52,839 nucleotides of DNA from NCBI GenBank assembly GCA_015057615.1, contig SVEA01000034.1:1-52839 (forward strand), in the 5' to 3' direction. The notes beneath the pieces were generated by a model. It was not told where the DNA came from and ran no database searches. It was given only the letters and a program-made list of their open reading frames with translations. Below are positions 13,849 to 49,178 of the stretch, piece after piece; positions within the stretch are counted from its first letter, which is position 1; the number at the start of each line of letters is the position of its first letter. Source of the DNA: Lachnospiraceae bacterium (lineage in GTDB: Bacteria; Bacillota; Clostridia; Lachnospirales; Lachnospiraceae). Position numbers and translations under genes: made by a program.

Positions 13849-14052
13849 GTTACTGTTCACACCTACCATGTATACCATGTTATGATTTCGTCAAATGTAT
13901 CCGAATCGGAGACGCTTTCGCTTAGTTGCATTACGTAGCGGTACATAAGGCTCCAAAATAGGGAGCCAAAGTACCAACGAATGCAAATACTCCTTATTGG
14001 ATATCATTTGTCGAAATCATATGATAGACTTTGCCCATGTGTGAACAGTAAC
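13849..14052. mobile_element. Family B MITE, copy B1 (204 bp)
   Basis: The element begins GTTACTGTTCACAC and ends with its reverse complement. It is flanked by TACTAGAC (13841-13848) and TACCAGAC (14053-14060), an 8-bp target duplication with one difference. It is palindromic, non-coding, and over 90% identical by eye to the inverted copy at 27378-27582. The centre holds the shared core: a GCGGTACATAAG arm, a GGCTCC hairpin and an AAGTACC arm. It lies between the promoters of the transport operon and its divergent regulator. Confidence 0.85.
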
Positions 14053-14090
14053 TACCAGACACGATATAAACATGTTTCAGATGCAATTCC

Positions 14091-14119
14091 TTGTTTTCCC
14101 TTATATTTTGATATATAAT
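14091..14119 (+). promoter_or_regulatory. Promoter of the GntR/LacI regulator with overlapping direct repeats
   Basis: TTGTTT (14091-14096), 17 bp, then TATAAT (14114-14119). The sequence TTTGATATATA appears twice around and just after the -10 (about 14107-14131), a possible operator for autoregulation. Confidence 0.6.
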
Positions 14120-14199
14120 ATTTGATATATAGCATAGATATCATGCGAATAAGATCTTGTTGAACAGAGTCAATAGAAGGACCAGAGGAGATAAAGATT

Positions 14200-15348
14200 A
14201 TGAAAAAACATACCTTAAGTGAACTCATCCAGAATGATATTTTAAATGAATTAGCCACAAAACAGTTAAAGCCAGGAGATAAAATACCTACCGAGCTTGA
14301 ATTAATGGAAAAATATCAAGTCAGCCGAATCACGGTTTCCTCTGCTCTCAATGGACTAAAAGAACAGAATATCATCAAACGTTATCCCAGAAGAGGCTCT
14401 TTTGTCAGTAAAAGCTTTGATATTTCCAGTCTCCCGATCGTATCGGAAAAGCAGCCGGCGGTTCCTCCATCCTTCCAATCGGAAACCGCAGCAAAAAAAT
14501 ATTCCATTGGTGTTATCATGCCATCCATTCGAGATCTTTTTGCAGTCAATATCATTCATGGCATTTCAAGCTACTTTTATAACGAATTCAATTTCCATTT
14601 GAATATATCCTATAGTGGAGACCAATCCTTTGAAGAATATGTCATTGATTATATGTTAAAAACGGATATCGACGGAATCCTTTTATTCCCGGTTGATCAG
14701 GAAATATACAATGTAAAAATACTGGAAATGAAGGTAAATAAGTTTCCCTTTGTCCTCATCGACCGTTGTCTGCCCGGCATCAATTCCCCCTTTGTCATAT
14801 CCGATAATGTGTACGGCGGACAGCTGGCAGCTTCCCACCTATGTGATCTGGGCCACAAGGATATCCTGGTATGCTGTGGTGCAGAACTGGATACCTTCTC
14901 CGTGAAAGAACGGGTAGAGGGCTATAAAAATGAGCTTGCCCGCCGCAATCTTCCTATCTGTGAAGAAAATATCATCCCAAACATACTTAAGAAATTAGAC
15001 AGTGCGGAGGAAAGAGAAAAAATCGAGGAGAAGCTCCTTGATCCAAAATACACCGGCCTTATTGTAACGGATTCTCCGGCTGCCATGAGCTTATATGATT
15101 TTTACATGAAGCATAATATACGTATTCCAGAGGACAAATCACTGATTTCCTATGATACTCCGATTCCAAATGTGTATAACTTTAACCCATTTACTTACGT
15201 GGATCAAAAGGAATATGCAATGGGAGCCAAAGCCGGAATGCTTATGAAGAACCTCCTATTAAATAAAATGGATTCCCTAGGCGATGACCAGATTATTATT
15301 AAGCCGAATCTTGTAATTAATCGGACGACAGCACCTGCAAAACGGTAA
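14200..15348 (+). CDS. GntR-type regulator with LacI-like sugar-binding domain
   Basis: 382 residues; ATG 14200 has AGAGGAG upstream. Residues 1-70 are a GntR winged helix-turn-helix (PGDKIPTELELMEKYQVSRI and RYPRRGSFVSK). Residues about 95-380 are a periplasmic-binding-protein-like sensor of LacI type (IGVIMPSIRDLFAVNIIHGI, GILLFPVD, TGLIVTDSPAAMSLYDF). This is the AraR-like arrangement, in which a sugar releases the repressor from DNA. It is divergent from the solute-binding/permease operon, its likely target. Its ligand is unknown. Confidence 0.9.
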   Translation: MKKHTLSELIQNDILNELATKQLKPGDKIPTELELMEKYQVSRITVSSALNGLKEQNIIKRYPRRGSFVSKSFDISSLPIVSEKQPAVPPSFQSETAAKKYSIGVIMPSIRDLFAVNIIHGISSYFYNEFNFHLNISYSGDQSFEEYVIDYMLKTDIDGILLFPVDQEIYNVKILEMKVNKFPFVLIDRCLPGINSPFVISDNVYGGQLAASHLCDLGHKDILVCCGAELDTFSVKERVEGYKNELARRNLPICEENIIPNILKKLDSAEEREKIEEKLLDPKYTGLIVTDSPAAMSLYDFYMKHNIRIPEDKSLISYDTPIPNVYNFNPFTYVDQKEYAMGAKAGMLMKNLLLNKMDSLGDDQIIIKPNLVINRTTAPAKR

Positions 15349-15400
15349 AATCGTATCAATGACAGAACTTTTCAATATAGATCGATTATAAATGTAAGCA

Positions 15401-15535
15401 AGTAGTAAATAGTTTGCCTTGGCAAACTCTCGCGCCGAGCGCGTTCTGCCGCAGGTAGATAAATACCTTACGCGCGAGTGCGCATCCTTAGCGGAGCATA
15501 TTTTGTCGTATAGGACGTAATTTCTATACGATAAA
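15401..15535. repeat. Family E structured repeat, copy E1
   Basis: A chain of short hairpins: GTTTGCCTTGGCAAAC, CGCGCCGAGCGCG, TCTGCCGCAGGTAGA, and a terminal TCGTATAG.../CTATACGA stem. It matches 31364-31545 closely at both ends, while the middle differs. It lies between convergent genes. Confidence 0.75.
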
Positions 15536-15537
15536 TA

Positions 15538-15580
15538 CGGCCCTATTCAACCGCATCAATGTTACGGTTGGATAGGGCCG
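15538..15580. terminator. Bidirectional terminator-like hairpin
   Basis: CGGCCCTATTCAACCG (15538-15553) pairs with CGGTTGGATAGGGCCG (15565-15580), a 16-bp stem with one wobble and an 11-nt loop, between convergent genes. T-runs are weak on both sides. Confidence 0.6.
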
Positions 15581-15616
15581 ATTAACTTCCTAAATCACCT
15601 GGATATTTTCCTCCGG

Positions 15617-16714
15617 CTAATCCAGTTTGGGTATTTCTATCTCAACTTCCCTATGTAACTTACTGGAACGGTAAATACCGTCACAGATTGCCTGGTTATA
15701 GATGATTTCCTCACCCGGTACCGGGGACGGACGGCCTTCTAATATGGCGTCACAGAAATCGCGTACCTTGGCTTCAAAGATATCTGTCTGTTTCGGAGTT
15801 TCATATGCATCAAAAGGCAGGGACGGAAGAACATAGCTGTCAATATTCTGTCCGTTTACATCAGTAAAATACATAACGCGGGACGGCTTGTTGGCATAAT
15901 CAAATTCATTCTTAATTTTTATTCCGCCCTCGGTACCCAGCCACAGGGTGTCTCCCAACGTATCCGCATGCATTGCCCAGGACTGCCGGAACAGAAAGGT
16001 TAGGTCATTTTCCATACGGACAAACGCTACGGAAAAATCATCAACAATAAAGGAATCCGCACCGGAAAAGTATTTCGGATTTTTCCCAAAATAATCGGTA
16101 GCCATAGCAGATACGGTTAACGGCTTCGGATAGCTTACCGCATGAAGGCATTCGTCAATGGAGTAGCAGCCGATATCACCTAAGCAGCCGAAACCGGCTT
16201 TATCACTGTCTACGAAAGTTCCTCCCGGTATTCCCCTTCTTCTTCCGCCGCCGCTCTGTATGAAGTAAACCTTTCCAAGCGCTCCGGAACGTATGATATC
16301 ATCTACTTTCTTACGGGTGGTATCATAGCGGGGTTGAAATCCGATGGTCAGAATCTTATTTGCTTTTTTTGAGGCCTTTACCATATCCACGGCTTCCTGC
16401 AAGGTAAAGGACATGGGTTTTTCGCACTGTACATGAAGTCCTGCCTCTAAGGCAGCAATGGTACATTCTGCGTGAGTGGTGTTATAGGTACATACGCTCA
16501 CCCCATCCATTTCCACATTTTTAATCAATTCCTCTGCACTTTCAAAAGCCTGTGCTTTGGGAAGCCCCCACCGATTCAGAAACTCCCTTGCTTTACCGGA
16601 AACGATATCTGCTCCCCCGACGATTTCCACATCATCAAATTTTTTATAGGCTGTCATATGTGCATTCGCAATACCGCCCGTTCCAATGATTCCAATTTTT
16701 AATTTCTTACTCAT
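15617..16714 (-). CDS. Gfo/Idh/MocA family NAD(P)-dependent oxidoreductase
   Basis: 365 residues with AGAGGA before ATG 16714. The N-terminus has a Rossmann fingerprint, KIGIIGTGGIANAHMTAYKK, followed by the family EKP motif (VQCEKPMSFTLQEAVDM) near residue 97 whose lysine is catalytic. The middle contains GDIGCYSIDECLH, the substrate-side G-D-I-G-x-x-x-x-D pattern with a downstream His. It should oxidise or epimerise a sugar or inositol hydroxyl with NAD(P). It is the second of two such genes, separated by a family A repeat, and probably acts on sugars imported by the neighbouring system; that link is inference. Confidence 0.9.
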   Translation of the reverse strand: MSKKLKIGIIGTGGIANAHMTAYKKFDDVEIVGGADIVSGKAREFLNRWGLPKAQAFESAEELIKNVEMDGVSVCTYNTTHAECTIAALEAGLHVQCEKPMSFTLQEAVDMVKASKKANKILTIGFQPRYDTTRKKVDDIIRSGALGKVYFIQSGGGRRRGIPGGTFVDSDKAGFGCLGDIGCYSIDECLHAVSYPKPLTVSAMATDYFGKNPKYFSGADSFIVDDFSVAFVRMENDLTFLFRQSWAMHADTLGDTLWLGTEGGIKIKNEFDYANKPSRVMYFTDVNGQNIDSYVLPSLPFDAYETPKQTDIFEAKVRDFCDAILEGRPSPVPGEEIIYNQAICDGIYRSSKLHREVEIEIPKLD

Positions 16715-16738
16715 AATTATCCTCTTTTCTTAAAAAGA

Positions 16739-16974
16739 TTAGCCCGATAAAAGCCCTCTTAGCAAATCGTCTTCATCCATTTGCACAAATCAAGGTTAAT
16801 TCGCAACTGTTTGAAGTCGTTGGCACGCACCATTACGTACTTCAATCCAAGTACTGCGTTTTTTGCAGTGCTTTGGGAGCAATGTGTTGCGAATGAAATT
16901 TGTTTCCTATTACTTGTCAACACATAAATTATGCAAATTGATGAAGTCGAGTATATATCGGCTTTTGTCACTCA
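16739..16974. repeat. Family A inverted-repeat element, copy A1
   Basis: Starts TTAGCCCGATAAAAGCC and ends GGCTTTTGTCACTCAT, with inner arms CTTCATCCATTTGCACAAA versus ATGCAAATTGATGAAG. The core GAAGTCGTTGGCAC...GTACTTC is present but lacks the apical hairpin of the longer copies. It abuts the stop codon of the upstream Gfo/Idh gene. Confidence 0.8.
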
Positions 16975-16978
16975 TATC

Positions 16979-17959
16979 TTAAAAAAATACTTCTCTTCTT
17001 TCTTTATGAGAGATATATGCCGCCTCTAACAGCTCGGTCAGTTTTGTTCCGGCTTCTGCGTCAAAAACAATTGGTTTATCATATAACACACCATCCACCC
17101 ATTGTCTCAAAGCATGGGGAAGGGCTTCCGGCAGCTTATCAGGTGTTAGCCAGCCTTTAAACTCTTCTCCCATCTGATTGGAGGTAAGCCTGATATTATC
17201 GTCACAGATTACCAGAGTCCCATCCGTACCGTAGACCTCGACCATGGAAGGAGTTTTATAAGTTACAAGACTTGTTTCTATAATAGCCACCGCTTTATTT
17301 TCAAATTCAATCGTACAAACCGAATTGTCCTCAACCGCTCTGTCCGTAAAATAGCTGAACATAGAGGAAATTCTTACCGGTTTCCCTAAAATCCAACTGG
17401 AAAGATACATCGGATGGCATCCCAGATCCATCATAGCTCCTCCGCCAGCTTTGCTTTCGTCATACCAGTATTCCGGCAGCCAATTATGAAGGGCACCATC
17501 ATGACCGTTACGGATTCGAAGAAGATTTACCTTACCGACCAGTCCAGCATCTATAACACTTTTCACATACAGATTTACCGGTGTTGTACGTGCAGGAAAC
17601 GATATTGCAAATTTAACCCCTGCTTTTTTTATTTCTTCCGTGATCTCTTCACATTCCTTTTTGGTAAGAGCCATAGCCTTTTCCGTAAAAATATGTTTTC
17701 CGGCTTTTGCTGCCTTTTTCATGATTTCAGCATGCATGCTGGTAGGCGAGCATACCAGTATTCCGTCAACATCTTCGCGGCTCAAGATCTTATCCAGATC
17801 CTCTTCAAAATCAACCTTTAAGGATTTTGCCCACTCTTTTCCCCTGTTTGGTTCCTCATCCCAGACACAGGTTATCTGTGCATCGGGAAAGGTACTCAAA
17901 AGCTCGGCATACCCCTGCGCATGTACATGCCACTTACTTATTAATGCTACTCTTAGCAT
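16979..17959 (-). CDS. Gfo/Idh/MocA family oxidoreductase
   Basis: 326 residues from ATG 17959, which has AAAGGAG at good spacing; frames opening further upstream lack this signal. The N-terminus LRVALISKWHVHAQGYAE is a variant Rossmann opening in which the glycine fingerprint is weak. The family EK motif appears as HIFTEKAMALTKKE (usual EKP is EKA here). The central GGAMMDLGCHPMYLSSWILG carries the D..CH..yl..w substrate motif. It is first in the two-gene set and divergent from an AraC regulator, its likely activator. Substrate unknown. Confidence 0.88.
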   Translation of the reverse strand: MLRVALISKWHVHAQGYAELLSTFPDAQITCVWDEEPNRGKEWAKSLKVDFEEDLDKILSREDVDGILVCSPTSMHAEIMKKAAKAGKHIFTEKAMALTKKECEEITEEIKKAGVKFAISFPARTTPVNLYVKSVIDAGLVGKVNLLRIRNGHDGALHNWLPEYWYDESKAGGGAMMDLGCHPMYLSSWILGKPVRISSMFSYFTDRAVEDNSVCTIEFENKAVAIIETSLVTYKTPSMVEVYGTDGTLVICDDNIRLTSNQMGEEFKGWLTPDKLPEALPHALRQWVDGVLYDKPIVFDAEAGTKLTELLEAAYISHKERREVFF

Positions 17960-18276
17960 AATAACTCCTTTCTGGACACAATTTCCACTTCTTTGTGATA
18001 CCTGCATTATAAACATTACCTGGTAAAAAAGCATAGCAGTTCTTACAAGAAATCTCTCAATTTTTTAAATGGATAAATAATTCTCAGAAAGGCTTTGGGC
18101 ACTCATTTCAGCTATTGTTTATACAACAGATACGTGTTCCAGTGCGGAGTAAAGCAACGGTATAACAAACATCGGGAAGTTTTACCTGATAATTTTTGTA
18201 ATACGAACAGCTATCATAGAATTCATTAGCCAAATGTATTATAATAGGAACAAGCGAAAGAAACGAGGTCAACGAA
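17960..18276. other. Divergent intergenic region (317 bp)
   Basis: No gene seen. On the minus strand TATAAT lies at 18011-18006, a plausible -10 for the Gfo/Idh operon with a poor -35. On the plus strand TATAAT at 18240-18245 could be the -10 for the AraC gene. No repeat family member is recognised. Confidence 0.5.
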
Positions 18277-19158
18277 ATGCTCCCACTCTATCTCACGGAA
18301 AAAGATGATGATTTTTTCTTTAACCTATCAATCCATGATATAAAAAATGATGTCGATCCCCATGGACATAGTTTTTTAGAGCTTCATTATGTTTTTGAGG
18401 GAGAGGGGATAGAAAAAATAAATGGCATTGAATACGTTATGAAGCCCGGTACCTTTGCCGTCATATTCCCGTATCAGGTTCATGAAATGTACATAAAAAA
18501 GGATACCGAAGTACGTCTTTATAACCTTTGCCTTTCTACCAAAACGATGTTTGACCAGGATGAATACGGCATTGTTATGAACCGGCTTTTATTTGATATT
18601 GATTTACATGAAAGAACAATTTATGATATTGAATCCGATACTGCAGAAAAATTTCTTACTCTGTTTCGTGAGATGCAGAAAGAATACGAAGAGGATAAAA
18701 TTTGGAAAAAATTTATGTTAAAGGCAAAAATCATAGAGCTTTTAATATTATTTGACCGTTACCGGAGGTTCCGTGTCATCAAAGAAAATACACCCCCGGC
18801 CGATACCCTCGATAATGATACCTGGTCTATTATCCACTATGTCTATAAGAACTGGAATACCAATATCACCTTAAAAAGTCTGTCCAAGCTCTTTTATTTA
18901 AGTGAGTCTTATATCAGTACGATCTTTAAGCAGTGCCTTGGCATCAGCTTTTATACTTTTTTAACAGACCTGCGCATTGAAAATGCCTGCAGTCTCTTAG
19001 CCTCTTCCAAGATGTCCGTTACCAATATTGCCTATGAGGTGGGCTACGCATCCTACAGTACTTTTGTACGGGTATTTAACAAACAAAAAGGAGTCAGTCC
19101 CGTTACCTACCGGCAGTTGATTAAAAATAACCAGCTTGAAAATCCCGTCAAAGATTGA
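18277..19158 (+). CDS. AraC family transcriptional regulator
   Basis: 293 residues. Residues about 20-75 form a cupin-like sensor (DPHGHSFLELHYVFEGEG and MKPGTFAVIFPYQVHEMY). Residues about 190-285 form the double helix-turn-helix (ITLKSLSKLFYLSESYISTI and MSVTNIAYEVGYASYSTFVR). The GYASYSTFVRVFNKQKGVSP stretch is the family signature, so this is a sugar-responsive DNA-binding regulator. It is divergent from the two Gfo/Idh genes and likely controls them. Confidence 0.92.
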   Translation: MLPLYLTEKDDDFFFNLSIHDIKNDVDPHGHSFLELHYVFEGEGIEKINGIEYVMKPGTFAVIFPYQVHEMYIKKDTEVRLYNLCLSTKTMFDQDEYGIVMNRLLFDIDLHERTIYDIESDTAEKFLTLFREMQKEYEEDKIWKKFMLKAKIIELLILFDRYRRFRVIKENTPPADTLDNDTWSIIHYVYKNWNTNITLKSLSKLFYLSESYISTIFKQCLGISFYTFLTDLRIENACSLLASSKMSVTNIAYEVGYASYSTFVRVFNKQKGVSPVTYRQLIKNNQLENPVKD

Positions 19159-19200
19159 TTAAAACCATGCGCAGAAAACATTTAACATCTCAAAGCGGTA

Positions 19201-19374
19201 TGATATAATACAGCGTAGTGAGTATATGCAAGCTTGCTTGCAATATGCGATCGGAGCAAAAGATCATGAACTGTTTTTTTGTTCATGATATAATAAGAAC
19301 GGAATGAGGAAATGCAAGCTTGCTTGCGGTTTCCGAGTGGAGTGACAAGATCATGAACTGCTTTGTTCATGATA
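19201..19374 (+). repeat. Family D two-hairpin repeat, tandem pair D1
   Basis: A type 1 unit (CGTAGTGAG...GATCGGAGC) is followed by a type 2 unit (GGAATGAGG...GAGTGGAGTG). Each has a hairpin around GCAAGCTTGCTTGC and a second hairpin ATCATGAAC/GTTCATGAT. Extended -10-like TGATATAAT motifs lie at 19201-19209 and 19286-19294. The array ends 17 bases before the queH ribosome binding site. Confidence 0.85.
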
Positions 19375-19401
19375 ATCATATGCAGTATCAGGAGGTGCCG
19401 T

Positions 19402-20055
19402 ATGAAAATAAACTATCAGAATAAGATGGAAGAGATCCTTGAGCAGGTGTCAGCAAGCGATACGATGCCCTCTCTTCTGCTACACAGCTGTTGCGCACCA
19501 TGCAGCAGCTCTGTGTTGGAATGCCTGTCAAAACATTTTAAGATCACCGTCTTTTATTATAATCCAAACATTGAACCCATTGCAGAATATCAAAAAAGAG
19601 TAGCGGAACAAAAGCACTTTCTTTCCGTCCTCCCATCCACAAATCCAATTGAATTTGTCGAAGGTCCTTATGAAGCGGATGCTTTTCAGATGATTTGCGC
19701 AGGCCGGGAAGAAGATAAAGAGGGAGGTTCCCGCTGCTTCCTGTGCTATGAATTGAGACTTCGAAAAACAGCCGAGTTTGCTAAGTTAAACGGCTTTGAT
19801 TATTTCACCACCACACTGTCTGTAAGCCCGTATAAGAATGCTCAGGCACTCAATGAAATTGGCGCACGCCTATCCGAAGAATACTGCATTCCCTATCTAT
19901 TTTCGGATTTCAAGAAAAAAGATGGATATCATAGATCCATTGAGCTTTCAAAACAGTACGGACTGTATCGTCAGAACTTTTGCGGATGCATATATTCACA
20001 AAAGGCCAGCGAGCAAAAGGCTGATTTGTCACAGCAAAACGAATCGGGAAATTGA
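19402..20055 (+). CDS. queH: Epoxyqueuosine reductase QueH
   Basis: 217 residues from ATG 19402 with AGGAGGTG upstream; longer frames lack a ribosome site. It catalyses the last step of queuosine formation in tRNA, reducing epoxyqueuosine, and is the non-cobalamin alternative to QueG. The family cysteines are visible: LLHSCCAPCSSSVLE near residue 30 (CC..C), RCFLCYELRL in the middle and FCGCIYS near the C-terminus, which bind an Fe-S cluster and metal. It follows a tandem repeat array and has no queuosine neighbours. Confidence 0.93.
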   Translation: MKINYQNKMEEILEQVSASDTMPSLLLHSCCAPCSSSVLECLSKHFKITVFYYNPNIEPIAEYQKRVAEQKHFLSVLPSTNPIEFVEGPYEADAFQMICAGREEDKEGGSRCFLCYELRLRKTAEFAKLNGFDYFTTTLSVSPYKNAQALNEIGARLSEEYCIPYLFSDFKKKDGYHRSIELSKQYGLYRQNFCGCIYSQKASEQKADLSQQNESGN

Positions 20056-20310: not shown

Positions 20311-20322
20311 TTCACGTTAATA

Positions 20323-20529
20323 ATGTTTATCACATTTTAGGTTTTCAACAAGAGTGTGTGATTATTATCCAGCAGATACACGTTCTTACTCGGTTGTCGC
20401 TCATAGCGGTACATAAGGCTGTGACAGATATTTATCTGCCACAACCTAAGTACCGATGGCGACAAACGGTCTATTTATGGAATAATAATTCACACACTCT
20501 TCTTTTTAGATATTGAATGTGATAAACAT
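20323..20529. repeat. Family C inverted-repeat element (207 bp)
   Basis: Outer arms are ATGTTTATCACATT (20323-20336) and AATGTGATAAACAT (20516-20529), with inner arms AAGAGTGTGTGA versus TCACACACTCTT. The centre is the shared core: AGCGGTACATAAGGCTGTG, an inner stem, then CCTAAGTACCGATGG. It has the same length class as family B but different ends. No target duplication is evident. Related sequence flanks it on both sides (20295-20337 and 20562-20602). Confidence 0.75.
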
Positions 20530-26920: not shown

Positions 26921-26955
26921 TTCTTTCCAACTTTCCTGTGACATAACAATGATAT

Positions 26956-27241
26956 AAGTGTTAAAAGCTTTCCTAGATCGTCTTCATCAATTTGCACAAA
27001 TTAAGGAAAAACCGGGGTAATAGGAAACAATATTTTTAATTCCGCAACTGTTTGAAGTCGTTGGCACTTAAACCACGTATTTTGTGGTCTTATGTACCAT
27101 TACATACTTCAATCCAAGTACTGCGTTTTATGTAGTGCTTTTGAGAAACGGGTTGCGAATAAAATATGTTTCCTATTACTTATCAATGCATAAATTGCGC
27201 AAATTGATGAAGTTCGTTGTATAAATCAGCTTTTGGCACTT
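26956..27241. repeat. Family A element, copy A2
   Basis: Ends AAGTGTTAAAAGC and GCTTTTGGCACTT; inner arms CTTCATCAATTTGCACAAA versus CGCAAATTGATGAAG. The full core with apical hairpin AACCACGTATTTTGTGGTC is present. It begins 35 bp upstream of topB. Confidence 0.85.
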
Positions 27242-27377
27242 GAATCAACAATTACATGGTAAAGGAATATCGCCGGCAAAACGCGCTTCGAAATTGCGAT
27301 CCCATGTAATCCAAACCATTATATTCCGTAACAATAGTATACCCCATATCTTGAAAATGGACAAATAAAACTTTTTT

Positions 27378-27582
27378 GTTACTGGTCCACACATGGGCAA
27401 AGTCTATCCTATGATTTCGACAAATGATATCTGATAAGGAGTATTTGCATTCGTTGGTACTTTGGCTCCGTATTTTGGAGCCTTATGTACCGCTACGTAA
27501 TGCAACTAAGCGAAAGCGTCTCCGATTCGGATATATTTGACGAAATCATAACATGGTATACATGGTGGGTGTGAACAGCAAC
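27378..27582. mobile_element. Family B MITE, copy B2 (205 bp)
   Basis: Inverted ends GTTACTGGTCCACAC / GTGTGAACAGCAAC are flanked by a perfect 8-bp duplication ACTTTTTT (27370-27377 and 27583-27590). It is inverted relative to B1 and nearly identical to it. No open frame for a transposase exists inside. It sits about 160 bp upstream of the LUD gene. Confidence 0.9.
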
Positions 27583-28417: not shown

Positions 28418-28509
28418 GATATAATAAAATGGAATGAGGAAATGCAAGTTTACTTGTAATCTCCGAGTGGAATGCCAAGATCATGAGCAAGTTTTTTGTT
28501 CATGATGAT
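28418..28509 (+). repeat. Family D unit D2 (type 2)
   Basis: GGAATGAGGAAATGCAAG...CTTGTAATCTCCGAGTGG followed by the ATCATGAGC/GTTCATGAT hairpin. Stem changes are compensated by wobble pairs. It is separated from unit D3 by element A3. Confidence 0.8.
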
Positions 28510-28801
28510 ATGAATGACAAAAGCCTTCCTAACAAATCGTCTTCATCAATTAGCACAATCAAGGTAAAACTTAAGTAATAGGAAACAATATTTTAATTCG
28601 CAACTGTTTAAAGTCGCTGGCACTTAGGTCACGTGTTTTGTGGTCTTATATACCATTACGTACTTCAATCCAAGTAATGTGTTTTATGCAGTGCTTTATG
28701 AGACCATGTGTTGCGAATGAAATATATTTCCTATTACTTATCAACACATAGACTGTGCAAATTGACGAAGTCAAGTTTATAAATCGGCTTTAGTCACTCA
28801 T
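28510..28801. repeat. Family A element, copy A3, inserted between family D units
   Basis: Ends ATGAATGACAAAAGCC and GGCTTTAGTCACTCAT. It carries the full core with apical hairpin (GGTCACGTGTTTTGTGGTC). TCATGAT-like sequence borders both sides, as expected if it entered a D array and duplicated a short target. Confidence 0.8.
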
Positions 28802-28803
28802 GT

Positions 28804-28902
28804 CTCATGATATAATAACGGCGTAGTGAGCATATGCGAGCTTGCTTGTGATATGCGATCGGAGCCAAAGATCATGAACAGCTTTTTGTTCATGATATAA
28901 TA
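28804..28902 (+). repeat. Family D unit D3 (type 1)
   Basis: CGTAGTGAGCATATGCGAG, its pairing arm and GATCGGAGCC, then ATCATGAAC/GTTCATGAT. Extended -10-like TGATATAAT occurs at 28808-28816 and 28893-28901; the latter is positioned to drive the small gene at 28926. Confidence 0.8.
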
Positions 28903-31363: not shown

Positions 31364-31545
31364 AGTAGCAAAGAGCTTGCCTTGGCAAACTCTCGCACCG
31401 AGCGCGTTCTGCCGCAGGCAGATAAATACCTTACGAATACATGTTTCAAGTATTCGTTACGTGCTGAGTGCGTTATCCCAATGCGAACTATGTTCGCATG
31501 GAGGTTTTTTTATCGTATAGGATGCAATTTCCTATACGATAAAAA
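31364..31545. repeat. Family E structured repeat, copy E2
   Basis: It shares TTGCCTTGGCAAACTCTCGC, CGAGCGCGTTCTGCCGCAGG and the terminal TCGTATAGGA/TCCTATACGA hairpin with E1. It has extra hairpins ACGAATACATG.../AAGTATTCGT and ATGCGAAC/GTTCGCAT in the middle. Confidence 0.75.
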
Positions 31546-31677: not shown

Positions 31678-31942
31678 GTATATCATGGAACAAAAATAGT
31701 TCATGATCATCTTATTACTCCACTCGAAATTGCAAGTAAACTTGCATATTCTCTACGCTTTTATTGTATCATGAGTAAAGAACACTCATGATCTTTGGCT
31801 CCGATCGCATATTGCAAGCAAGCTTGCGTATGCTCACTACGCCTTCATTATATCATGAACAAAGAACATGTTCATGATCTAGGCACTCCACTCGGAAATT
31901 GCAAGCAAGCTTGCATTTCCTCATTCCGTTTTTATTGTATCA
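31678..31942 (-). repeat. Family D array D4 (three units)
   Basis: On the minus strand the units run type 2, type 1, then a diverged type 2. The second terminal hairpin is ATCATGAGT/ACTCATGAT instead of ATCATGAAC/GTTCATGAT, a double compensatory change. TGATATAAT lies between the first two units (31855-31847). Confidence 0.85.
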
Positions 31943-33991: not shown

Positions 33992-34113
33992 AAAACTGAT
34001 CCTCCTTTATATATTATAGTTCAAATAAATTTGCAGAACTAATTTTAACTTTTTCTTTACTTTTCTCTGCTACTTTTCATATACACTTAAAATGCAGTTT
34101 TTCTATATTATGT

Positions 34114-34378
34114 TTAGCCCGACAAAAGCCTTCTTAACAATTCATCTTCAGCAATTTGCACAAATCAAGATAAAACCAAGTAATAGGAACAATATTTTAA
34201 TTCGCAACTGTTTGAAGTCGTTGGCACGCACCATTACGTACTTCAATCTAAGTATTGCGTTTTATGCAATGCTTTGGGAGCAATGTGTTGCGAATGAAAT
34301 TTGTTTCATATTAATATTCAACACATAAATTGTGAAAATTGATGAAGTCGAGTTTATAAATCAGCTTTTGTCACTCAT
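34114..34378. repeat. Family A element, copy A4
   Basis: Ends TTAGCCCGACAAAAGCC and GGCTTTTGTCACTCAT. Like A1 it lacks the apical hairpin (GTTGGCACGCACCATTACG). It lies about 120 bp upstream of deoD. Confidence 0.85.
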
Positions 34379-34469
34379 ATCATATTATCTTTCAGCAAGT
34401 GCCCGTAATTTATACGAAGCAAAATCGAAATATAATGCTCTCTGTTCTCCCCATTTCTACGCGGCTTTT

Positions 34470-37190: not shown

Positions 37191-37624
37191 TTCCGTATGG
37201 TTACCCCTGCTTTCTTCTCTATTTCTCCGTATGGTTACCCCGAGCTTTCTTTCTATTTCTCCGTATGGTTACCCCCGGCTTTCTTCTCTATTTCTGCATA
37301 TAGGGCTACCCTCCAAGCTTTCTTCTCTATTCCTGCATATGGGTTATCCTCCAAGCTTTCTTCTCTATTCCTGCATATGGGTTATCCTCCAGGCTTTCTT
37401 CTCTATTTCTGCATATGGGTTACCCTCCAGGCTATCTTCTCTATTTCTGCATATGGGTTACCCTCCAGGCTATCTTCTCTATTTCTGCATATGGGTTACC
37501 CTCCAGGCTTTCTTCTCTATTTCTGCATATGGGTTACCCTCCAGGCTATCTTCTCATTTCTGCATATGGGTTACCCTCCAGGCTTTCTCTGTTTCTGCGT
37601 ATGGTTACCCTTCTGGCTTTACTG
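37191..37624 (-). repeat. 38-nt tandem repeat array with embedded ribosome sites and micro-ORFs
   Basis: About 12 units. On the minus strand the consensus reads TAGAGAAGAAAGCCTGGAGG then GTAACCCATATGCAGAAA. Central units (about 37306-37600) are nearly identical; both edges are diverged. Roughly eight units carry GGAGG, a 9-10-nt gap and ATG CAG AAA TAG (or CAG GAA). The array begins in the stop codon of the DUF4349 gene and ends about 110 bp before the rubredoxin-like gene. The plus strand is open in all frames but is not judged coding. Confidence 0.9.
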
Positions 37625-43026: not shown

Positions 43027-43488
43027 TTAAGAAATACTTACTATTTGATTAATTACCGGTTTCATCAGCTCCATCATACGCTCCGTCTGATCGGTTAAGT
43101 ATAGGTGTCCGATGAGTGCTTCCACTCCGGTCGCGGTACGGTATTCGACGATACTGGCATTCTTCGCAGAGGTGAAGGATTTGGCATTTCTTCCCCTCTT
43201 ATAAACGGATATCTCCTCCTCGGTAAGCAGCTCCTCAATCCTGTGATAATGATCTGCCTGAGCCGTTGCCTGCACGAGCTTTGTTACCCGCTTATGAAGC
43301 TTATTCACCGGTGCATTCCCTTGTTCCACCACGGAAGTCCGAATAATCAGATCATAGACCGCATCACCGATATACGCCAGTGTCAATGGGGAAAATGATT
43401 TGATATCCGTATCCGGAAGATGAAACGTATCTCTTAAATAGCCTGCAAAGGAGGTATCTATCTCCTTATTTTCTATTTCCTTTTCCAT
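43027..43488 (-). CDS. mrnC: Mini-ribonuclease III
   Basis: 153 residues. Catalytic-domain-only RNase III that matures 23S rRNA ends. Visible motifs are TLAYIGDAVYDLIIRTSVVE (RNase III signature with acidic residues) and EYRTATGVEALIGHLYLTDQ. No dsRNA-binding domain follows, as expected for the family. The start overlaps the cysS 3' end by 16 nt; cysS-mrnC adjacency is conserved in many Firmicutes. Expression therefore falls under the upstream cysteine T-box. Confidence 0.94.
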   Translation of the reverse strand: MEKEIENKEIDTSFAGYLRDTFHLPDTDIKSFSPLTLAYIGDAVYDLIIRTSVVEQGNAPVNKLHKRVTKLVQATAQADHYHRIEELLTEEEISVYKRGRNAKSFTSAKNASIVEYRTATGVEALIGHLYLTDQTERMMELMKPVINQIVSIS

Positions 43489-44876
43489 CTTACGCCCTCT
43501 CTGGTATCCTCAAGCAGGATACCCTTTTCTAATAACTGATCACGGATTTGATCCGCCAATGCAAAATTCTTGTTCTTTCTTGCTGCCTGTCGCTCCTCGA
43601 TAAGCTTATCGATCACCTCGTCCAGCAGCTCCTCCTCCTGATGCGCCTTGATCCCCAGGATATCGCATAAGGCAATGATCTTGTCCTTAATATATTCGAC
43701 AAATACAATGCTTCTGTCTCCATTGCAGTTGGTGTTGGCAAGCTTTACGATCTCAAAGATCGCAGCGATCGCATCCGCCGTATTTAAGTCATCCTCCATG
43801 GAAAGGTTGAATTTTTCCTGAAGTGCATCCGTTTCCTTAACGAATTCCGCTTCCTCTTTCGTAAGGCTGCCTTCCTTCAAGGTGCCGGATCCCAGTAAAA
43901 ACTCCAGCTGCCCTACACTGGTAAGAATTCTTGTCAGAGAATTTGCCGCCGCTTCCATCAGCTCCCTGCTAAAGTTTAACGGACTGCGGTAATGCGCATT
44001 CAGCATAAAGAAACGAACCACCTGCGGCGGATATTGCTCACAGATTTCTCTTACGGTAAAGAAGTTGCCTGTGGATTTAGACATTTTCTTATTATCAATA
44101 TTCAGAAATGCGTTGTGCATCCAGTATCTTGCAAATGGTTTCCCGCTGGCAGCTTCACTCTGCGCAATTTCATTTTCATGATGGGGAAAGATAAGATCCT
44201 CGCCGCCAGCATGGATATCGATCTCTTCCCCCAGATATTTTGCACTCATAGCGGAGCATTCGATATGCCAGCCGGGTCTTCCGTCTCCCCAGGGAGAACT
44301 CCAGGATGGTTCCCCCTCTTTCTTCGGCTTCCAGAGGACAAAATCCATAGGATCTTCTTTCTCCTCATTGACTGCGATACGGCTTCCTGCCTCCAAATCA
44401 TCAATGTTCTTCTTGGAAAGCTTACCATACTCCTTAAAGCTTCTTGTTTTATAATATACGGTACCCTTCTTTTCGTAAGCATAGCCTTTTTCAATCAAAG
44501 TTTCTATCATCCGAATCATAACACCGATTTCCTCGGTAGCCTTCGGATGGAAGGTAGCCTCCTTCACATTAAGGGCATCCATATCCGTGCGGAGCTCTCT
44601 AATATAACGCTCCGAAATCTCCGAGGCTTTGACGCCTTCTTCCTGCGCTTTCTTAATAATTTTGTCATCCACATCCGTAAAATTCGATACATAGTTCACT
44701 TCATATCCCTTGTATTCCAAATATCTTCTCAAGGTATCAAAAATGATCGCCGGTCTGGCATTCCCGATATGAACATAATTATATACCGTCGGCCCGCAGA
44801 CATAGATCCGTACCTTTCCTTCTTCAATCGGTACGAATTCTTGTTTTTTTTGGGTTAACGTATTATATATTTTCAT
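43473..44876 (-). CDS. cysS: Cysteine--tRNA ligase
   Basis: 467 residues with GGAGGAAG before ATG 44876. Class I synthetase: IYVCGPTVYNYVHIGNARPA holds the zinc Cys and HIGN signature, WHIECSAMSAKYLG and HAGGEDLIFPHHENEIAQSE the remaining zinc ligands, and KMSKSTGNF near residue 264 the KMSKS loop. The C-terminal anticodon-binding region is complete. It follows cysE after a 118-bp gap that contains a minimal family A element, and precedes mrnC. Confidence 0.97.
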   Translation of the reverse strand: MKIYNTLTQKKQEFVPIEEGKVRIYVCGPTVYNYVHIGNARPAIIFDTLRRYLEYKGYEVNYVSNFTDVDDKIIKKAQEEGVKASEISERYIRELRTDMDALNVKEATFHPKATEEIGVMIRMIETLIEKGYAYEKKGTVYYKTRSFKEYGKLSKKNIDDLEAGSRIAVNEEKEDPMDFVLWKPKKEGEPSWSSPWGDGRPGWHIECSAMSAKYLGEEIDIHAGGEDLIFPHHENEIAQSEAASGKPFARYWMHNAFLNIDNKKMSKSTGNFFTVREICEQYPPQVVRFFMLNAHYRSPLNFSRELMEAAANSLTRILTSVGQLEFLLGSGTLKEGSLTKEEAEFVKETDALQEKFNLSMEDDLNTADAIAAIFEIVKLANTNCNGDRSIVFVEYIKDKIIALCDILGIKAHQEEELLDEVIDKLIEERQAARKNKNFALADQIRDQLLEKGILLEDTREGVRWKRK

Positions 44877-44910
44877 TCCACTTCCTCCTTGATTCCTGTT
44901 TTTATCTCGT

Positions 44911-44974
44911 ATAATATGATTAGCCCGATAAAAGCCTTCTTAACAAATCGGCTTTGTCGCTCCTATCATAATAT
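44911..44974. repeat. Minimal family A derivative in the cysE-cysS gap
   Basis: ATAATATGATTAGCCCGATA then AAAGCC, a spacer TTCTTAACAAATC and GGCTTTGTCGCTCC then TATCATAATAT: inverted arms with nearly all internal sequence lost. Confidence 0.65.
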
Positions 44975-44994
44975 AGTTTTTTAACCGCTTTCGG

Positions 44995-45699
44995 TTATTG
45001 CTCTTCTTTCCCCGACCGCTTACTCAGATGGTCGATCTTCTTCTCCAGCAGATCAATTGTATCATATAATTTCTTTAATTCACCCTTCAAACAATCATTT
45101 TCCTTTTTCAGCCCGGACATATCATGCTGCAGCGGATCTGGAAAATGAACCTGATCCAGGTCTTCCCTCGGCACTCTCTTATTATCCCTTTTCACAACTC
45201 TTCCCGGCACACCAACCACGGTAGAATTCGGCGGAACCTCCGAAAGTACAACGGAACCGGCACCAATCTTCGAATTCTCACCCACCGTAAAGGAACCGAT
45301 CACCTTTGCTCCCGCGCTTATCATAACATTATTGCCGATCGTAGGATGCCGCTTTCCCTGCTCCTTACCGGTACCTCCAAGGGTGACTCCCTGATACAGG
45401 GTTACATAATCTCCTATAATGGTCGTTTCGCCGATTACCTCTCCGATCCCATGATCAATAAACAGACCTTTTCCAATCGTTGCACCAGGATGAATCTCGA
45501 TCCCGGTTTTTCTGGCGGTTTTCTGTGATAGCCACCGGGCGAGAAAATAATGCTTGTGAACATATAGGGAATGCGCCATCCGATACCTTAATATCGCTTT
45601 AAAGCTTGGGTATAAGAATACCTCCATCGATGACTTGATTGCTGGATCCCTCTCTTTTATAATCTGCATTTCCTCTTTAATATAATTTATAATACCCAT
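44995..45699 (-). CDS. cysE: Serine O-acetyltransferase
   Basis: 234 residues with AGGAGG before ATG 45699. It makes O-acetylserine for cysteine synthesis. The N-terminal helical part is short (SMEVFLYPSFKAILRYRMAH) and is followed by hexapeptide repeats (IEIHPGATIGKGLFIDHGIG, HPTIGNNVMISAGAKVIGSF). The catalytic His-containing IDHGIGEVIGE is intact. Residues beyond about 180 form a coiled-coil tail (LKKENDCLKGELKKLYDTID), longer than in minimal CysE. It is the first gene after the T-box. Confidence 0.95.
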   Translation of the reverse strand: MGIINYIKEEMQIIKERDPAIKSSMEVFLYPSFKAILRYRMAHSLYVHKHYFLARWLSQKTARKTGIEIHPGATIGKGLFIDHGIGEVIGETTIIGDYVTLYQGVTLGGTGKEQGKRHPTIGNNVMISAGAKVIGSFTVGENSKIGAGSVVLSEVPPNSTVVGVPGRVVKRDNKRVPREDLDQVHFPDPLQHDMSGLKKENDCLKGELKKLYDTIDLLEKKIDHLSKRSGKEEQ

Positions 45700-45766
45700 G
45701 ATACCATCCTCCTATGATAACCAATAAGACGAAATTATAAGACGCAATTTCCTGTACGACAAAAAT

Positions 45767-45790
45767 ACCGCCCCTAAGATAGAGGCGGTG
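45767..45790 (-). terminator. T-box terminator stem
   Basis: On the minus strand CACCGCCTC / GGGGCGGT followed by ATTTTTG, immediately downstream of the T-box sequence; the 5' arm overlaps the antiterminator region. Confidence 0.85.
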
Positions 45791-45795
45791 AAAGA

Positions 45796-46040
45796 CGCGG
45801 TTCCACTCTAATTTATATGTACTTAGCGAAAACACTAACTACATATATCTCTTACAGATAACGGCTGTATTCCGTGCCCAGCTAGACATACGCTTCACCA
45901 GACCAGCTCCCGGATGCACTTCATACATGGCTTCGTAAAGAATGCTTTCAGCCGGTGACATTCTATCTCTGCTACTATTCCATGGATTACTTTTCCGTTC
46001 TTCGCTTTTAAAATTTAGAATCTATTTATTTAAATTTGGT
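45796..46040 (-). promoter_or_regulatory. T-box leader, probably cysteine-specific, for cysE-cysS-mrnC
   Basis: The minus strand contains the T-box AGAGTGGAACCGCG (45809-45796), which pairs with the tRNA acceptor end. Upstream is Stem I material: GAACGGAAAAGTAATCC and the candidate specifier loop TATGAAGTGCATCCGG, in which TGC (45918-45916) is a Cys codon. Uncharged tRNA-Cys should favour the antiterminator over the stem at 45767-45790. The assignment to Cys rests on the specifier reading and the downstream genes. Confidence 0.88.
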
Positions 46041-46058
46041 ATTGTTCACTATTGCTTT

Positions 46059-46087
46059 ATTGTATGCATAGATAAATATTTTGTCAA
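46059..46087 (-). promoter_or_regulatory. SigmaA promoter of the T-box operon
   Basis: TTGACA (46087-46082), 17 bp, TACAAT (46064-46059) on the minus strand, just upstream of the leader. Confidence 0.85.
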
Positions 46088-46114
46088 TACCCCCGCTAAA
46101 AATAATCTTATCCG

Positions 46115-46666
46115 CTAATCTTGTTTCGGACATCCGCTACATCCGCCACAGCTTCTGCCCGCCGTATTCGGTGTCACATCATATTGATAACGAAACATGG
46201 ATTCCAACAGGCAGACTGCGTTGGCAGCGATTCCAAGCTCTGCTCCGGTAAATCCAAGTCCCTCCTCTGTTGTTGCTTTGATATTCACCCGGTCCTCCTC
46301 CATACCAAGCACATCTGCTATGTTTTTAACCATCTCCGGAAGGTAGGAGGCAAGCTTTGGCTTCTGTGCGATAATGGTAGCATCTATATTTTCAATCACA
46401 TAGAGTTTTTCCTCCAAAAGCTTCTTCACCCGGTCTAATAAATCGATACTGGACACTCCTTTTAATTCCGGAGCGCTGTCCGGAAAGTGCTTGCCAATAT
46501 CTCCGAGAGCCGCTGCTCCCAAAAGCGCATCCATAATTGCATGCACCAATACATCCGCATCGGAGTGTCCGAGTAGTCCCCGCTCATAGGGTATCTTGAC
46601 ACCCCCAAGGATGAGATCTCTGCCTTCTATTAATTTATGAACATCATATCCTGTTCCAACTCTCAT
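46115..46666 (-). CDS. ispF: 2-C-methyl-D-erythritol 2,4-cyclodiphosphate synthase
   Basis: 183 residues. MEP-pathway enzyme forming the cyclodiphosphate for isoprenoids. [20 protein letters not shown] contains the zinc-binding DVH, followed by [20 protein letters not shown] and [20 protein letters not shown]. The usual length is about 158; here about 25 extra C-terminal residues end [11 protein letters not shown], a cysteine cluster not found in typical IspF. It stands alone, upstream of the T-box promoter. Confidence 0.95.
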
Positions 46667-46878
46667 AAGGTTTTCCTTGCCCTTTCAAATGCAATTGTCC
46701 AATTCTGTTGACCCTGATTCATTTTTATTTTACTCGAACAGGGGGGGAAATACAAGCTGTCATTTTTAACCGCTTCCTGCGGTGTGATGAAGAGGTACTA
46801 CCAAGCATACTCCGACCGAACGGGACTGTCTCTTATCAAAGTAGATGCTTTTTATTTACCTAGCATAGCTAAACAAAA

Positions 46879-46907
46879 AAACACCGTACAAAAAATGCTT
46901 TGGTGTT
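46879..46907 (-). terminator. Terminator of the tRNA unit
   Basis: On the minus strand AACACC...GGTGTT with a following T-run (TTTTTTTG), 25 bp after the tRNA-Met 3' end. Confidence 0.75.
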
Positions 46908-46933
46908 TTAAAAAATTTTTTATTTGTATGAAA

Positions 46934-47007
46934 TAGCGAAGGAGGGATTTGAACCCCCGACACCGCGGGTATGAACCGCGTGCTCTCGCCAACTGAGCTA
47001 CTTCGCC
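46934..47007 (-). tRNA. tRNA-Met (CAT)
   Basis: Minus-strand cloverleaf: acceptor GGCGAAG/CTTCGCT, D arm GCTCAGTTGGCGAGAGC, anticodon stem CGCGG-TTCATAC-CCGCG with CAT, and T arm GGGGGTTCAAATCCCTC. The first acceptor pair is G-U. The D arm and base 1 fit an elongator rather than an initiator. CCA is not encoded. Confidence 0.93.
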
Positions 47008-47011
47008 ATAA

Positions 47012-47084
47012 TGGGACCTATAGGGCTCGAACCTATGACCCTCTGCTTGTAAGGCAGATGCTCTCCCAGCTGAGCTAAGATCCC
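47012..47084 (-). tRNA. tRNA-Val (TAC)
   Basis: Minus-strand cloverleaf: acceptor GGGATCT/AGGTCCC, D arm GCTCAGCTGGGAGAGC, anticodon stem TCTGC-CTTACAA-GCAGA with TAC, and T arm ATAGGTTCGAGCCCTAT. CCA is not encoded. It precedes tRNA-Met by four bases in the same transcript. Confidence 0.95.
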
Positions 47085-47216
47085 AAATGCAGACTACTTT
47101 CCCGACACGATACCGATTAGGATAGACTGCATTATTGGAACGTATCGGATACCACATAAACGCTTCCTCGAATACCTCTTTCATGCTTGTACAAAGATTT
47201 CGAAAAAGCACTTTTT

Positions 47217-47245
47217 ATTATATCCATAGGATACCATTTTGTCAA
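47217..47245 (-). promoter_or_regulatory. Strong promoter of the tRNA-Val/tRNA-Met unit
   Basis: Perfect TTGACA (47245-47240), 17 bp, TATAAT (47222-47217) on the minus strand, about 130 bp before tRNA-Val. The rest of 47085-47399 shows no gene. Confidence 0.85.
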
Positions 47246-47399
47246 GAGGACAAATTCGACAAATTTAATTTCATGAATTTTCAATTTTAATTTAGGTATG
47301 CTTCAACAGATTTACTTCGACTATACCTCTTATCGCTTTACCGTTTTCCCCAAAGAGCGGAAAAACGGAATTTAACTTTTCATTCATCTTGCTCTCGTT

Positions 47400-48809
47400 T
47401 TATCGTCTCTTCGGAAGCAGATAAATTGCCGTTCCATAGATATCCTCAACCGCCTCGGTGACCGCTTCCTCATAGGTTGGATGAGGACGAATGACGGAGG
47501 CAAGATCATGAGCAGTTAAGCCATTTGCAATCGCTGTCACAAATTCTCCGATCATATCCGTTGCCCTTTCACATAAGAGTACTGCTCCAAGAATGCGATC
47601 GGTTGCGGCATCACAGATCACCTTGATAAATCCTCTTTCCCCGGTAGACAGTAACGTCTTACTGTTCCCAAGCATCGGATATTTTCCTACTTTTACTTCG
47701 ATACCTTTCGCCTTTGCTTCTTCCTCATTGATACCGACCACTGCCACCTCCGGTTCCGTATAGACGCAGGAAGGGATTACCTCCAAGGAAAGGGATGGCT
47801 TCCGATTACACATGATTTCAACCGCAGCGACTCCCTGCGCGGACGCCGCATGTGCCAGCTGCCTGCCTTTGATCACATCACCAATCGCATAGACTGTGTC
47901 GATACTTGTTTGAAATTTCTCATTTACTTTAATATGGGCGCCATCCATTGCTAATGAAAAATCCGGTCCAAACAGTCCCTCGGTGTTCGCTCTTCTGCCG
48001 ACCGCAACGAGAATTCCATCCGAACATACCGATTTCGCAGCGTTCTTTTCTTCAAAATCGCAGAGAAGCTCCCCGTCCGGTGTTTCTGAAATTTTAACTA
48101 CCTTCGCCTTGGTATGGATGATGACACCCTTTTTCTTCAGGTTCATGGCAATGCTCTGTGAGATCTCCTTATCCATATTGGGGAGGATGCGATCCATTGC
48201 TTCTATCACCTCCACCGCAGAGCCCATTTCCTGATAGTAGGTAGCCAGTTCAATGCCGATTACACCACCGCCGATAATCAGCAGCCTTTGATAAAGCTTT
48301 TCCCTTTGGGACAGAAGCTCATCACTGGTTATGACATTTGGCAAATGAATCCCCTCGATACCGGGCTTCACCGGTTTCGAACCAGCGGCAATCAGAATAT
48401 TATCTGTATTTATTCGAAGCTCTTCCTCAGCATTATTGATCTGTATCTGATGGGCATCCAGAATTGTTGCCATACCCTCTATTATCGTAACCCCATTCGC
48501 GGCAAGAAGGGATCGGATTCCCTGACGAATCTTATCTACAACCGCATCCTTTCGATCCTGAATTCGGTTCAGATCATAGGAAAGCTCCTTGCAGGAAATA
48601 CCCAACTCCCGAAACTCCTGCGCTTTTGCATATAGATGGGAGGTATACATTAAGGTCTTCGTCGGAATACAGCCGCGATTAAGACAGGTTCCGCCGATCT
48701 CCCTTTTCTCAATGACTGCCGTCCTCCTACCCATTTTAGCGGCTTTTATAGCTGCAACATAACCTCCGGGTCCCGACCCGATTACCATCAAATCATATTT
48801 TTCCTGCAT
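47400..48809 (-). CDS. lpdA: Dihydrolipoyl dehydrogenase
   Basis: 469 residues. FAD-disulfide oxidoreductase that reoxidises lipoyl groups, here most likely GcvH (L protein of glycine cleavage). The FAD motif is LMVIGSGPGGYVAAIKAAKM, the redox disulfide GGTCLNRGCIPTKTL (residues ~40-55), the NAD site LLIIGGGVIGIELATYYQEM, and the C-terminal His-Glu HPTYEEAVTEAVEDI. There is no fused lipoyl domain. It follows lplA and the gcv genes on the same strand. Confidence 0.95.
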   Translation of the reverse strand: MQEKYDLMVIGSGPGGYVAAIKAAKMGRRTAVIEKREIGGTCLNRGCIPTKTLMYTSHLYAKAQEFRELGISCKELSYDLNRIQDRKDAVVDKIRQGIRSLLAANGVTIIEGMATILDAHQIQINNAEEELRINTDNILIAAGSKPVKPGIEGIHLPNVITSDELLSQREKLYQRLLIIGGGVIGIELATYYQEMGSAVEVIEAMDRILPNMDKEISQSIAMNLKKKGVIIHTKAKVVKISETPDGELLCDFEEKNAAKSVCSDGILVAVGRRANTEGLFGPDFSLAMDGAHIKVNEKFQTSIDTVYAIGDVIKGRQLAHAASAQGVAAVEIMCNRKPSLSLEVIPSCVYTEPEVAVVGINEEEAKAKGIEVKVGKYPMLGNSKTLLSTGERGFIKVICDAATDRILGAVLLCERATDMIGEFVTAIANGLTAHDLASVIRPHPTYEEAVTEAVEDIYGTAIYLLPKRR

Positions 48810-48858
48810 CCTTACAGCACCCCATTCTATTTAATATTCTTCCTATATCATGGTAAGG

Positions 48859-49178
48859 TTAGCCCGACAAAAGCCCTCTTAACAAATCCTCTTCGGTAAT
48901 TTGCACAAATCAAGGAAAAGCTTAAGTAATAGGGAACAATATTTTACTACGCAACTGTTTGAAGTCGTTGGCACTTAGACAGGCACTTAGACAGGCACTT
49001 AGACCACGTATTTTGTGGTCTTATGTACCACTACGTACTTCAATCCAAGTACTGCGTTTTATGCAGTGCTTTATGAGACCATGTGTTACGAATGAAATTT
49101 GTTTCCTATTACTTGTCAATGCATAAAATTGTGCAAATTGACGAAGTTAAGTTTATAAATCGGCTTTTGTCGGGCTAA
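48859..49178. repeat. Family A element, copy A5, with perfect 17-bp ends
   Basis: TTAGCCCGACAAAAGCC at the left is exactly reversed as GGCTTTTGTCGGGCTAA at the right. The full core with apical hairpin GACCACGTATTTTGTGGTC is present, preceded by a short tandem duplication of GGCACTTAGACA. The right end extends into lplA and supplies its stop codon. Confidence 0.9.

Follow-up and report, generated by a model that had tools for sequence, protein, structure and literature searches.

The DNA considered here is a 52,839-nt window, the whole stretch analysed, on contig SVEA01000034.1 of a Lachnospiraceae bacterium (GCA_015057615.1; genome 4.07 Mb), whose assembly is a draft in which many contigs start or stop inside a copy of the repeats described below. 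Three families of short elements, A, B, and C, lie in this window with unrelated terminal inverted repeats (TIRs; GATATGAGYGAC.. in A, GTTACTGTTCACAC in B, and ATGTTTATCACATT in C), and all three enclose a common core in a single orientation, composed of GGYACTTW, a hairpin, and TTATGTACC. A preliminary description of this DNA had named these sequences and their positions, all of which are present, and had claimed one core, in one orientation, inside families with unrelated ends, which is borne out. The core is a real and widely shared folded module in no library searched, carried by different miniature inverted-repeat transposable elements (MITEs) here and kept by selection elsewhere, and we infer for it the mechanism set out further below.

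Family B comprises copies B1 (13849-14052, minus strand) and B2 (27378-27582, plus strand), with the TIR GTTACTGTTCACAC and 8-bp duplications of the target, imperfect in B1 (TACTAGAC/TACCAGAC, 7/8) and reading ACTTTTTT on each side of B2; their matches to R1, a covariance model of the core constructed from relatives, fall at 13902-13997 (94.2 bits) and 27434-27529 (99 bits). B2 serves as an example of the layout: the apical half of the core (27453-27494, plus strand) reads GTT-GGTAC-TTT-GGCTCC-GTATTTT-GGAGCC-TTAT-GTACC-GCT, and at 27510-27523 on the same strand stand the GNRA side hairpin GCGAAAGC at the three-way junction (27510-27517) and then the 3′ side of helix P1. The family C element (20323-20529, minus strand; R1 match 20370-20476, 66.4 bits) has a perfect 14-bp TIR, ATGTTTATCACATT, and a long apical hairpin; a target duplication was sought at this sole copy tested, and none was found. 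Family A is represented by five copies, all on the plus strand. A2 (26951-27246) has a 6-bp duplication, AACAAT, and an R1 match at 27041-27134 (51.9 bits), and A3 (28507-28804) a 7-bp duplication, TCATGAT, the best over the end positions searched, and a match at 28597-28690 (44.8 bits). A5 (48857-49180; duplication ATGGTAA/ATAGTAA, 6/7) matches R1 partially (48994-49032, 36.1 bits), and GGCACTTAGACA is repeated ahead of its hairpin (48970-49005), probably by slippage. The GNRA side hairpin is replaced by a longer one in most of the family A copies read. A1 (16737-16978) and A4 (34112-34381), with the 7-bp duplications TTAAAAA and ATATTAT, respectively, read GGCACGCACC where the remaining A copies have GGCAC-TTA-hairpin-TTAT-GTACC, so that the apical unit, TTA-hairpin-TTAT, is missing between GGCAC and the next ACC in both, in agreement with the earlier statement that they lack exactly the hairpin. 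Finally, a 50-bp derivative consisting of ends only, the left TIR fused to the right TIR with the body absent, lies at 44918-44967 (plus strand) between perfect 7-bp duplications, ATAATAT.

Families A and B have the features by which MITEs are recognized, namely TIRs, target-site duplications, and, for A2 and B2, empty sites in the sister genome G024. Among 26 distinct B copies, 16 have both ends in hand, and all 16 agree at six or more of eight flanking bases, 11 of them perfectly, the mean agreement being 7.56/8 versus 2.68 between copies as a control. The five A copies of the window have duplications of 6-7 bp at the best ends found by search, and duplications are present, where examined in the window, in copies without the apical hairpin or body; in four other A copies whose two ends were located by pattern, the duplication matches perfectly in two and does not in the other two. 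Given that the duplications and ends of A (6-7 bp) and B (8 bp) differ, the core seems to have been mobilized by two or more transposases, and the existence of A copies without the apical hairpin and of a copy with ends only suggests that the core is dispensable for transposition. The proposal of a functional structure in several non-autonomous elements stands with respect to a shared module with covarying arms and several carriers, but recognition by one transposase finds no support, because the A and B duplications differ and the A copies that lack the hairpin or the body keep their ends.

The shortened A forms either jumped themselves or lost parts after insertion. The sequence of family A without the apical unit has 35 matches in the genome (≤3 mismatches). 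On a tree of 42 A copies, 17 without and 25 with the unit, the trait changes 14 times versus about 13.6 times when shuffled and is therefore unclustered, on a poorly resolved tree that excludes copies with short flanks and whose well-supported branches force at least three changes. A single clade of hairpin-less copies is rejected on this ground; since these copies share a local haplotype, one origin with mixing is likely. In a B element of about 166 bp (L271:195-360), the apical part of the core has been lost by a different, asymmetric deletion. As to an autonomous partner for family B, the 99 exact 12-base B-end sites include no pair 0.8-3 kb apart in the draft assembly, and an autonomous element containing the core, for which the preliminary description had advised looking, was not seen in the loci read.

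The core extends far beyond the window. The pattern GGYACTTN{10,40}TTATGTACC has 117 + 87 = 204 matches in the 4.07-Mb genome, copy A5 being counted twice, versus 0 for the reversed control pattern, and conservation is thus not restricted to the few copies first noticed. The same pattern has matches in 37 of 145 genomes, the source genome included; when one locus was read in each of 29 other matching genomes, 20 looked genuine and nine looked like chance matches devoid of pairing or a side hairpin, and the remaining seven comprise one genome with seven matches and six with single ones. A better figure for prevalence is provided by R1, which at E≤0.001 detects the core in 63 genomes among 392 of the order; the 63 all fall in one family and span 32 of 173 genera. 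This survey yields presence rather than copy number, as at most 10 candidates were scored per genome. Among 398 genomes of the phylum, R1 is positive in five: the source genome, three of the same family, and G825, which belongs to another class. The improved model R2 (96 positions, 29 pairs), applied to 391 genomes of the class, detects the core in 12, of which 11 belong to the family and one, with a single weaker match (E 5.5e-6), lies outside it; all 16 of 16 genomes of the genus of G825 are positive as well, with up to 76 matches. The covariance-model search suggested at the outset therefore locates the core across the family and in another class. The titles of named contigs point to Lachnospiraceae as the positive family across the surveys: when the gap of the pattern was set to 13-16 (usually 17), 12 matches of odd length were found, nine from Lachnospiraceae, one from Clostridiales, and two from uncultured Clostridium. 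Rfam gives no match over the core (the window at gathering scores, 10 loci at E≤5, and 12 loci at E≤1), and no relevant paper on MITEs, repeats, or structured RNAs in Lachnospiraceae or Clostridia turned up among open-licence papers.

Some loci of these surveys have peculiarities of their own. Copies in the other class (L325-L382, from the genus of G825) have a longer apical hairpin, and outer arms such as GGACTCTGTTCAGAC are common to several of them. Two putatively viral IMG/VR contigs, L129 and L130, both contain the core. L060 and L273 (genome G006) have tandem arrays on a single strand, made of truncated cores and full ones in turn, and a group II intron match (Rfam RF00029) lies at L150:1708-1787, about 110 bases from a core.

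As first described, the core was shared and real but too small in extent; its full form, about 95 bases long, is a three-way junction from which a side hairpin capped by a GNRA loop extends. Covariation was assessed in 118 model matches, amounting to 115 distinct cores from about 44 genomes, a set without preselection for GNRA in which every member is an R1 match at E≤1e-5. Two-sided changes are seen in 29 of 29 pairs, with 974 two-sided change cells versus 292±19 after shuffling and at most 192 with the partners slid, and paired cells amount to 90.9% versus 63.2±0.5% shuffled; an earlier set of 54 cores, preselected for the GNRA hairpin, had given 96.0% versus 72.7±0.8%. Because the alignment was fitted to R1, these counts lean to the 23 pairs of that model, of which 22 rank among the top 30 values of mutual information and the remaining one scarcely varies. 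Mutual information adds six pairs beyond R1 (P1 columns 6-8/141-144, junction 9-10/126-127, and pair 23-107), which are free of the fitting bias but were selected for covarying. The other helices are P2 (columns 12-22/112-122), upper P2 (GGYRC/GYRCC, 24-28/101-106), P3 (32-37/91-96), and the short hairpin (129-131/136-138). The earlier claim that the hairpin arms differ yet stay paired is thereby upheld: the helices vary freely while remaining paired in a conserved three-way-junction fold, and the core is, beyond reasonable doubt, one conserved structured family. What stays constant is the loops, with a 5′ TTA in 104 of 115 cores opposite TTAT (65), TTA (37), or TTAC (7). The tetraloop is of the GNRA type in 111 of 115 cores, and among these T is absent from its second position and only A or G occupies the third. 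Mismatches of the G-A/A-G type recur in P2, in tandem in many sequences. Four sequences, when folded, take the shape of the model both as RNA (z -6.6 to -11.2) and as DNA, in which the fold is less stable (z -5.2 to -9.7).

Copies at fixed places in related genomes allow the core to be compared with its surroundings. G145 and G151 have ten copies at orthologous places, where 22 of 938 aligned core bases differ (2.3%, with 5 gap columns) versus 52/455 and 47/459 in the adjoining 50 bases (10-11%; gap columns 88 and 64, respectively), and divergence in the remaining bins of 50 bases is 3% to 15%. Four pairs of other species show 22/379 differences in the core (5.8%), the 100 bases next to it on either side differing by 14.4% and 10.3%, and in L306/L301 the core is identical and the flanks are poorly alignable; the contrast is somewhat favored because both members of every orthologue pair match the model. 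Compensated swaps are found at fixed places as well, such as GCCAC/GTGGC to GCCCT/AGGGC, GATCGC/GCGATC to GGCTGC/GCAGCC, and A-T to T-A, although these may instead be replacements by the hairpin of another copy. Taken as a whole, the core is very probably kept by selection at fixed intergenic places in some relatives.

An explanation by mobility alone would make the carriers ordinary MITEs, whose covariation arises because template switching during replication rewrites one arm from its partner, the fold itself being free of selection. It accords with the true MITE nature of A and B, with their target duplications, and with the arms around the core, in which G-U and A-C are equally frequent over 90 copies (216 versus 237). 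However, the loops, the bulge, and GNRA are constant across many genera of the family and in another class, the core evolves more slowly than its flanks at fixed places, and it is common to elements with unrelated ends. Template switching is further weakened because arm copying would erase the tandem G-A mismatches, which nevertheless persist, and we regard mobility alone as improbable.

The orientation of the core relative to genes is indifferent, with 31 sense and 36 antisense among 104 intergenic matches (a set that includes a few chance matches and array copies and excludes four matches inside genes), and 22 and 25 in a second set of 80; a regulator in 5′ or 3′ leaders is rejected for this lack of direction preference. 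The 3′ side of the core is nearer to genes than the 5′ side (median 69.5 versus 190.5, p 8e-6), perhaps because opposed partners occupy the latter. Opposed neighbors within 1200 bases comprise 17 pairs in the loci of the family and, across three genomes of the other class, another 20; all of these point apart with their 5′ sides facing, giving 37 apart versus 0 converging at the thresholds used. Neighbors in the same direction are few and include A2-B2-A3 in the window and the arrays of G006. An autonomous element between opposed copies was also considered in the other class and rejected, as the three longer intervals examined hold ordinary genes or no recognized gene.

Several known systems resemble the core or its carriers in part. 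Like the MITEs of a general review, A and B have TIRs, target duplications, small size, and no gene, but an interior common to families with unrelated ends is not seen in the part of that review considered (PMC10969869), and the core spans a family and another class. BOX, RUP, and SPRITE are likewise repeats with structure, TIRs, and duplications, and BOX may contain an additional inner module; according to the passages cited, they occur almost exclusively in pneumococcus and S. mitis and have relatives in S. suis, and a core common to elements with unrelated ends does not appear there (PMC3049150). The bcr1 repeat of Bacillus cereus is also short, mobile, and present in many copies, but is described in the section cited as confined to the B. 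cereus group and has a TTTAT motif (PMC6542083). A further likeness is to repetitive extragenic palindromes (REPs), bacterial interspersed mosaic elements (BIMEs), and REPINs (REP doublets), which, as far as the cited excerpts go, are intergenic, palindromic, multicopy, and arranged in opposed doublets as the core is (PMC3733652, PMC3116915, PMC6006769). There, REPs are hairpins of 20-40 bp with an unpaired GTAG or CGTC tag, the GTAG type being associated with the REP-associated tyrosine transposase (RAYT), and folding in single-stranded DNA has been proposed (PMC3733652, PMC3116915, PMC6006769); head-to-head pairing is common in REP dimers (PMC3733652, PMC3116915). In the portion considered of the survey of GTAG/CGTC REPs, the word Firmicutes does not occur. 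The core differs in being a three-way junction of about 95 bases rather than a single hairpin of the length given for REPs in those excerpts, and in having GTAG/CGTC-like bases that are mostly paired and covarying (columns 20-23/107-114) with no free tag. No RAYT was seen in a motif screen of 382 loci, which gave six candidates, none convincing.

Integron attC sites are folded single-stranded DNA in which the helices vary and the unpaired bases are conserved, traits that the core would share as folded DNA; R and L boxes are not seen by eye in the core consensus, and no integrase or cassette array was noticed, no dedicated search having been made. The core might itself be the site of a single-strand transposase or recombinase that reads it in folded single-stranded form, much as attC or the ends of IS200/IS605 are read, a notion to which the fold, the bulges, and the opposed pairing lend themselves, as does CGTAGC on the complementary strand beside the hairpin foot, which resembles a GTAG tag. 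Against this, A and B insert by their whole ends with target duplications, the apical unit is absent in the 35 A matches, the T of the GTAG-like tag covaries as a paired base (columns 22-112), and the motif screen of the loci brought no convincing HUH protein, so we consider such a site unlikely.

The best explanation overall, which we favor tentatively and at somewhat less than even probability, is that the core is an ancient module of about 95 bases, REP-like, read as folded DNA by a conserved protein. The core would be a single ancient nucleic-acid module loaded on very different elements. As a binding module, either useful to the cell or selfishly maintained, it may work much like REP, BIME, or REPIN and would act as a hairpin in single-stranded or extruded DNA. 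A putative conserved protein would recognize the loops TTA/TTA(T), the YT bulge, and GNRA rather than helix sequences, and because the fold would carry the signal, any MITE could carry the core. In broader terms, it is plausible, though somewhat less likely than not, that a functional nucleic acid in at least two bacterial classes is kept in fixed chromosomal positions through selection on its three-way-junction fold, has been repeatedly loaded onto unrelated MITEs, and serves an undescribed shared cellular factor in chromosome structure, replication, or RNA control.

The main competitor to folded DNA is a structured RNA, in which the core would be transcribed in mRNAs or as a small RNA, its three-way junction and GNRA loop would bind a protein or make a tertiary contact, and MITEs would benefit as their insertions become harmless or useful; we see in this a real possibility, less credible than either of the two preceding statements. 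If the core functions as RNA, its helices are expected to accept G-U and to reject A-C. Over the whole fold, G-U and A-C occupy 56 and 40 cells, 19 of the 56 G-U cells falling in two junction pairs of few genomes, or 39 versus 33 genome-by-pair states (p 0.56), and thus a tolerance of G-U far above that of A-C, as expected of structured RNA, is not seen. An RNA is likewise disfavored by the indifference to gene direction, by the lack of conservation in the flanks beside conserved cores, by the absence of matching Rfam families in the loci scanned, and by the promoter search, in which sigma-70 signals show no excess (24/104 upstream, 20 downstream, and 21 shuffled); an independent small RNA with its own promoter is rejected on the last count. 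With G-U no better tolerated than A-C, DNA in folded form is no less likely than RNA, and DNA folding is slightly the more probable, with RNA as a close rival, while the probability that the core works as DNA and not as RNA falls a little short of even.

A number of points weigh against a reading as folded DNA with a conserved binding protein. The apical hairpin taken alone has G-U 18 versus A-C 5, and changes at fixed places place G-U in four pairs and A-C in one, with one double change, both RNA-like but few. The restriction of the tetraloop to GNRA is typical of RNA, stable DNA loops being less restricted, and the RNA alternative gains as well from the recurring tandem G-A/A-G mismatches in P2 and from the four RNA folds. 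The equality of G-U and A-C could reflect neutral decay after insertion or palindrome repair by template switching, and the five tRNAs in the loci and window are too few for a G-U control on known RNAs. A crude motif screen for a REP-type transposase or binding protein, covering 2383 distinct open frames of the 382 loci, left the six candidates mentioned above unconvincing by eye. In addition, one weaker match (L317, 25.4 bits) converges on its neighbor, the G145/G151 flank 50-100 bases downstream is also slow (3.4%), and the orthologue sets were selected by both members matching the model, which favors conserved cores.

According to the passages cited for them, the interspersed repeats compared here either take their definition from their ends or occur in just a small number of related species, and the core is one fold common to elements with unrelated ends, to 32 of 173 sampled genera, and to a genus of another class, conserved at fixed places. 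It is a testable case of cargo with host function, and its model of 96 positions and 29 pairs lets RNA-seq or DNA-binding data of these bacteria be read.

Other repeats lie in the window beside the core-bearing elements. Another inverted-repeat family, with AAGCTTGCTTGC-like hairpins and no core, is found at 19210-19385, 28428-28514, 28818-28887, and 31786-31942; a 72-base repeat occurs at 15401-15472 and 31364-31435 with 93% identity; and about nine units of a 38-base tandem repeat span 37265-37606, overlapping plus-strand open frames.

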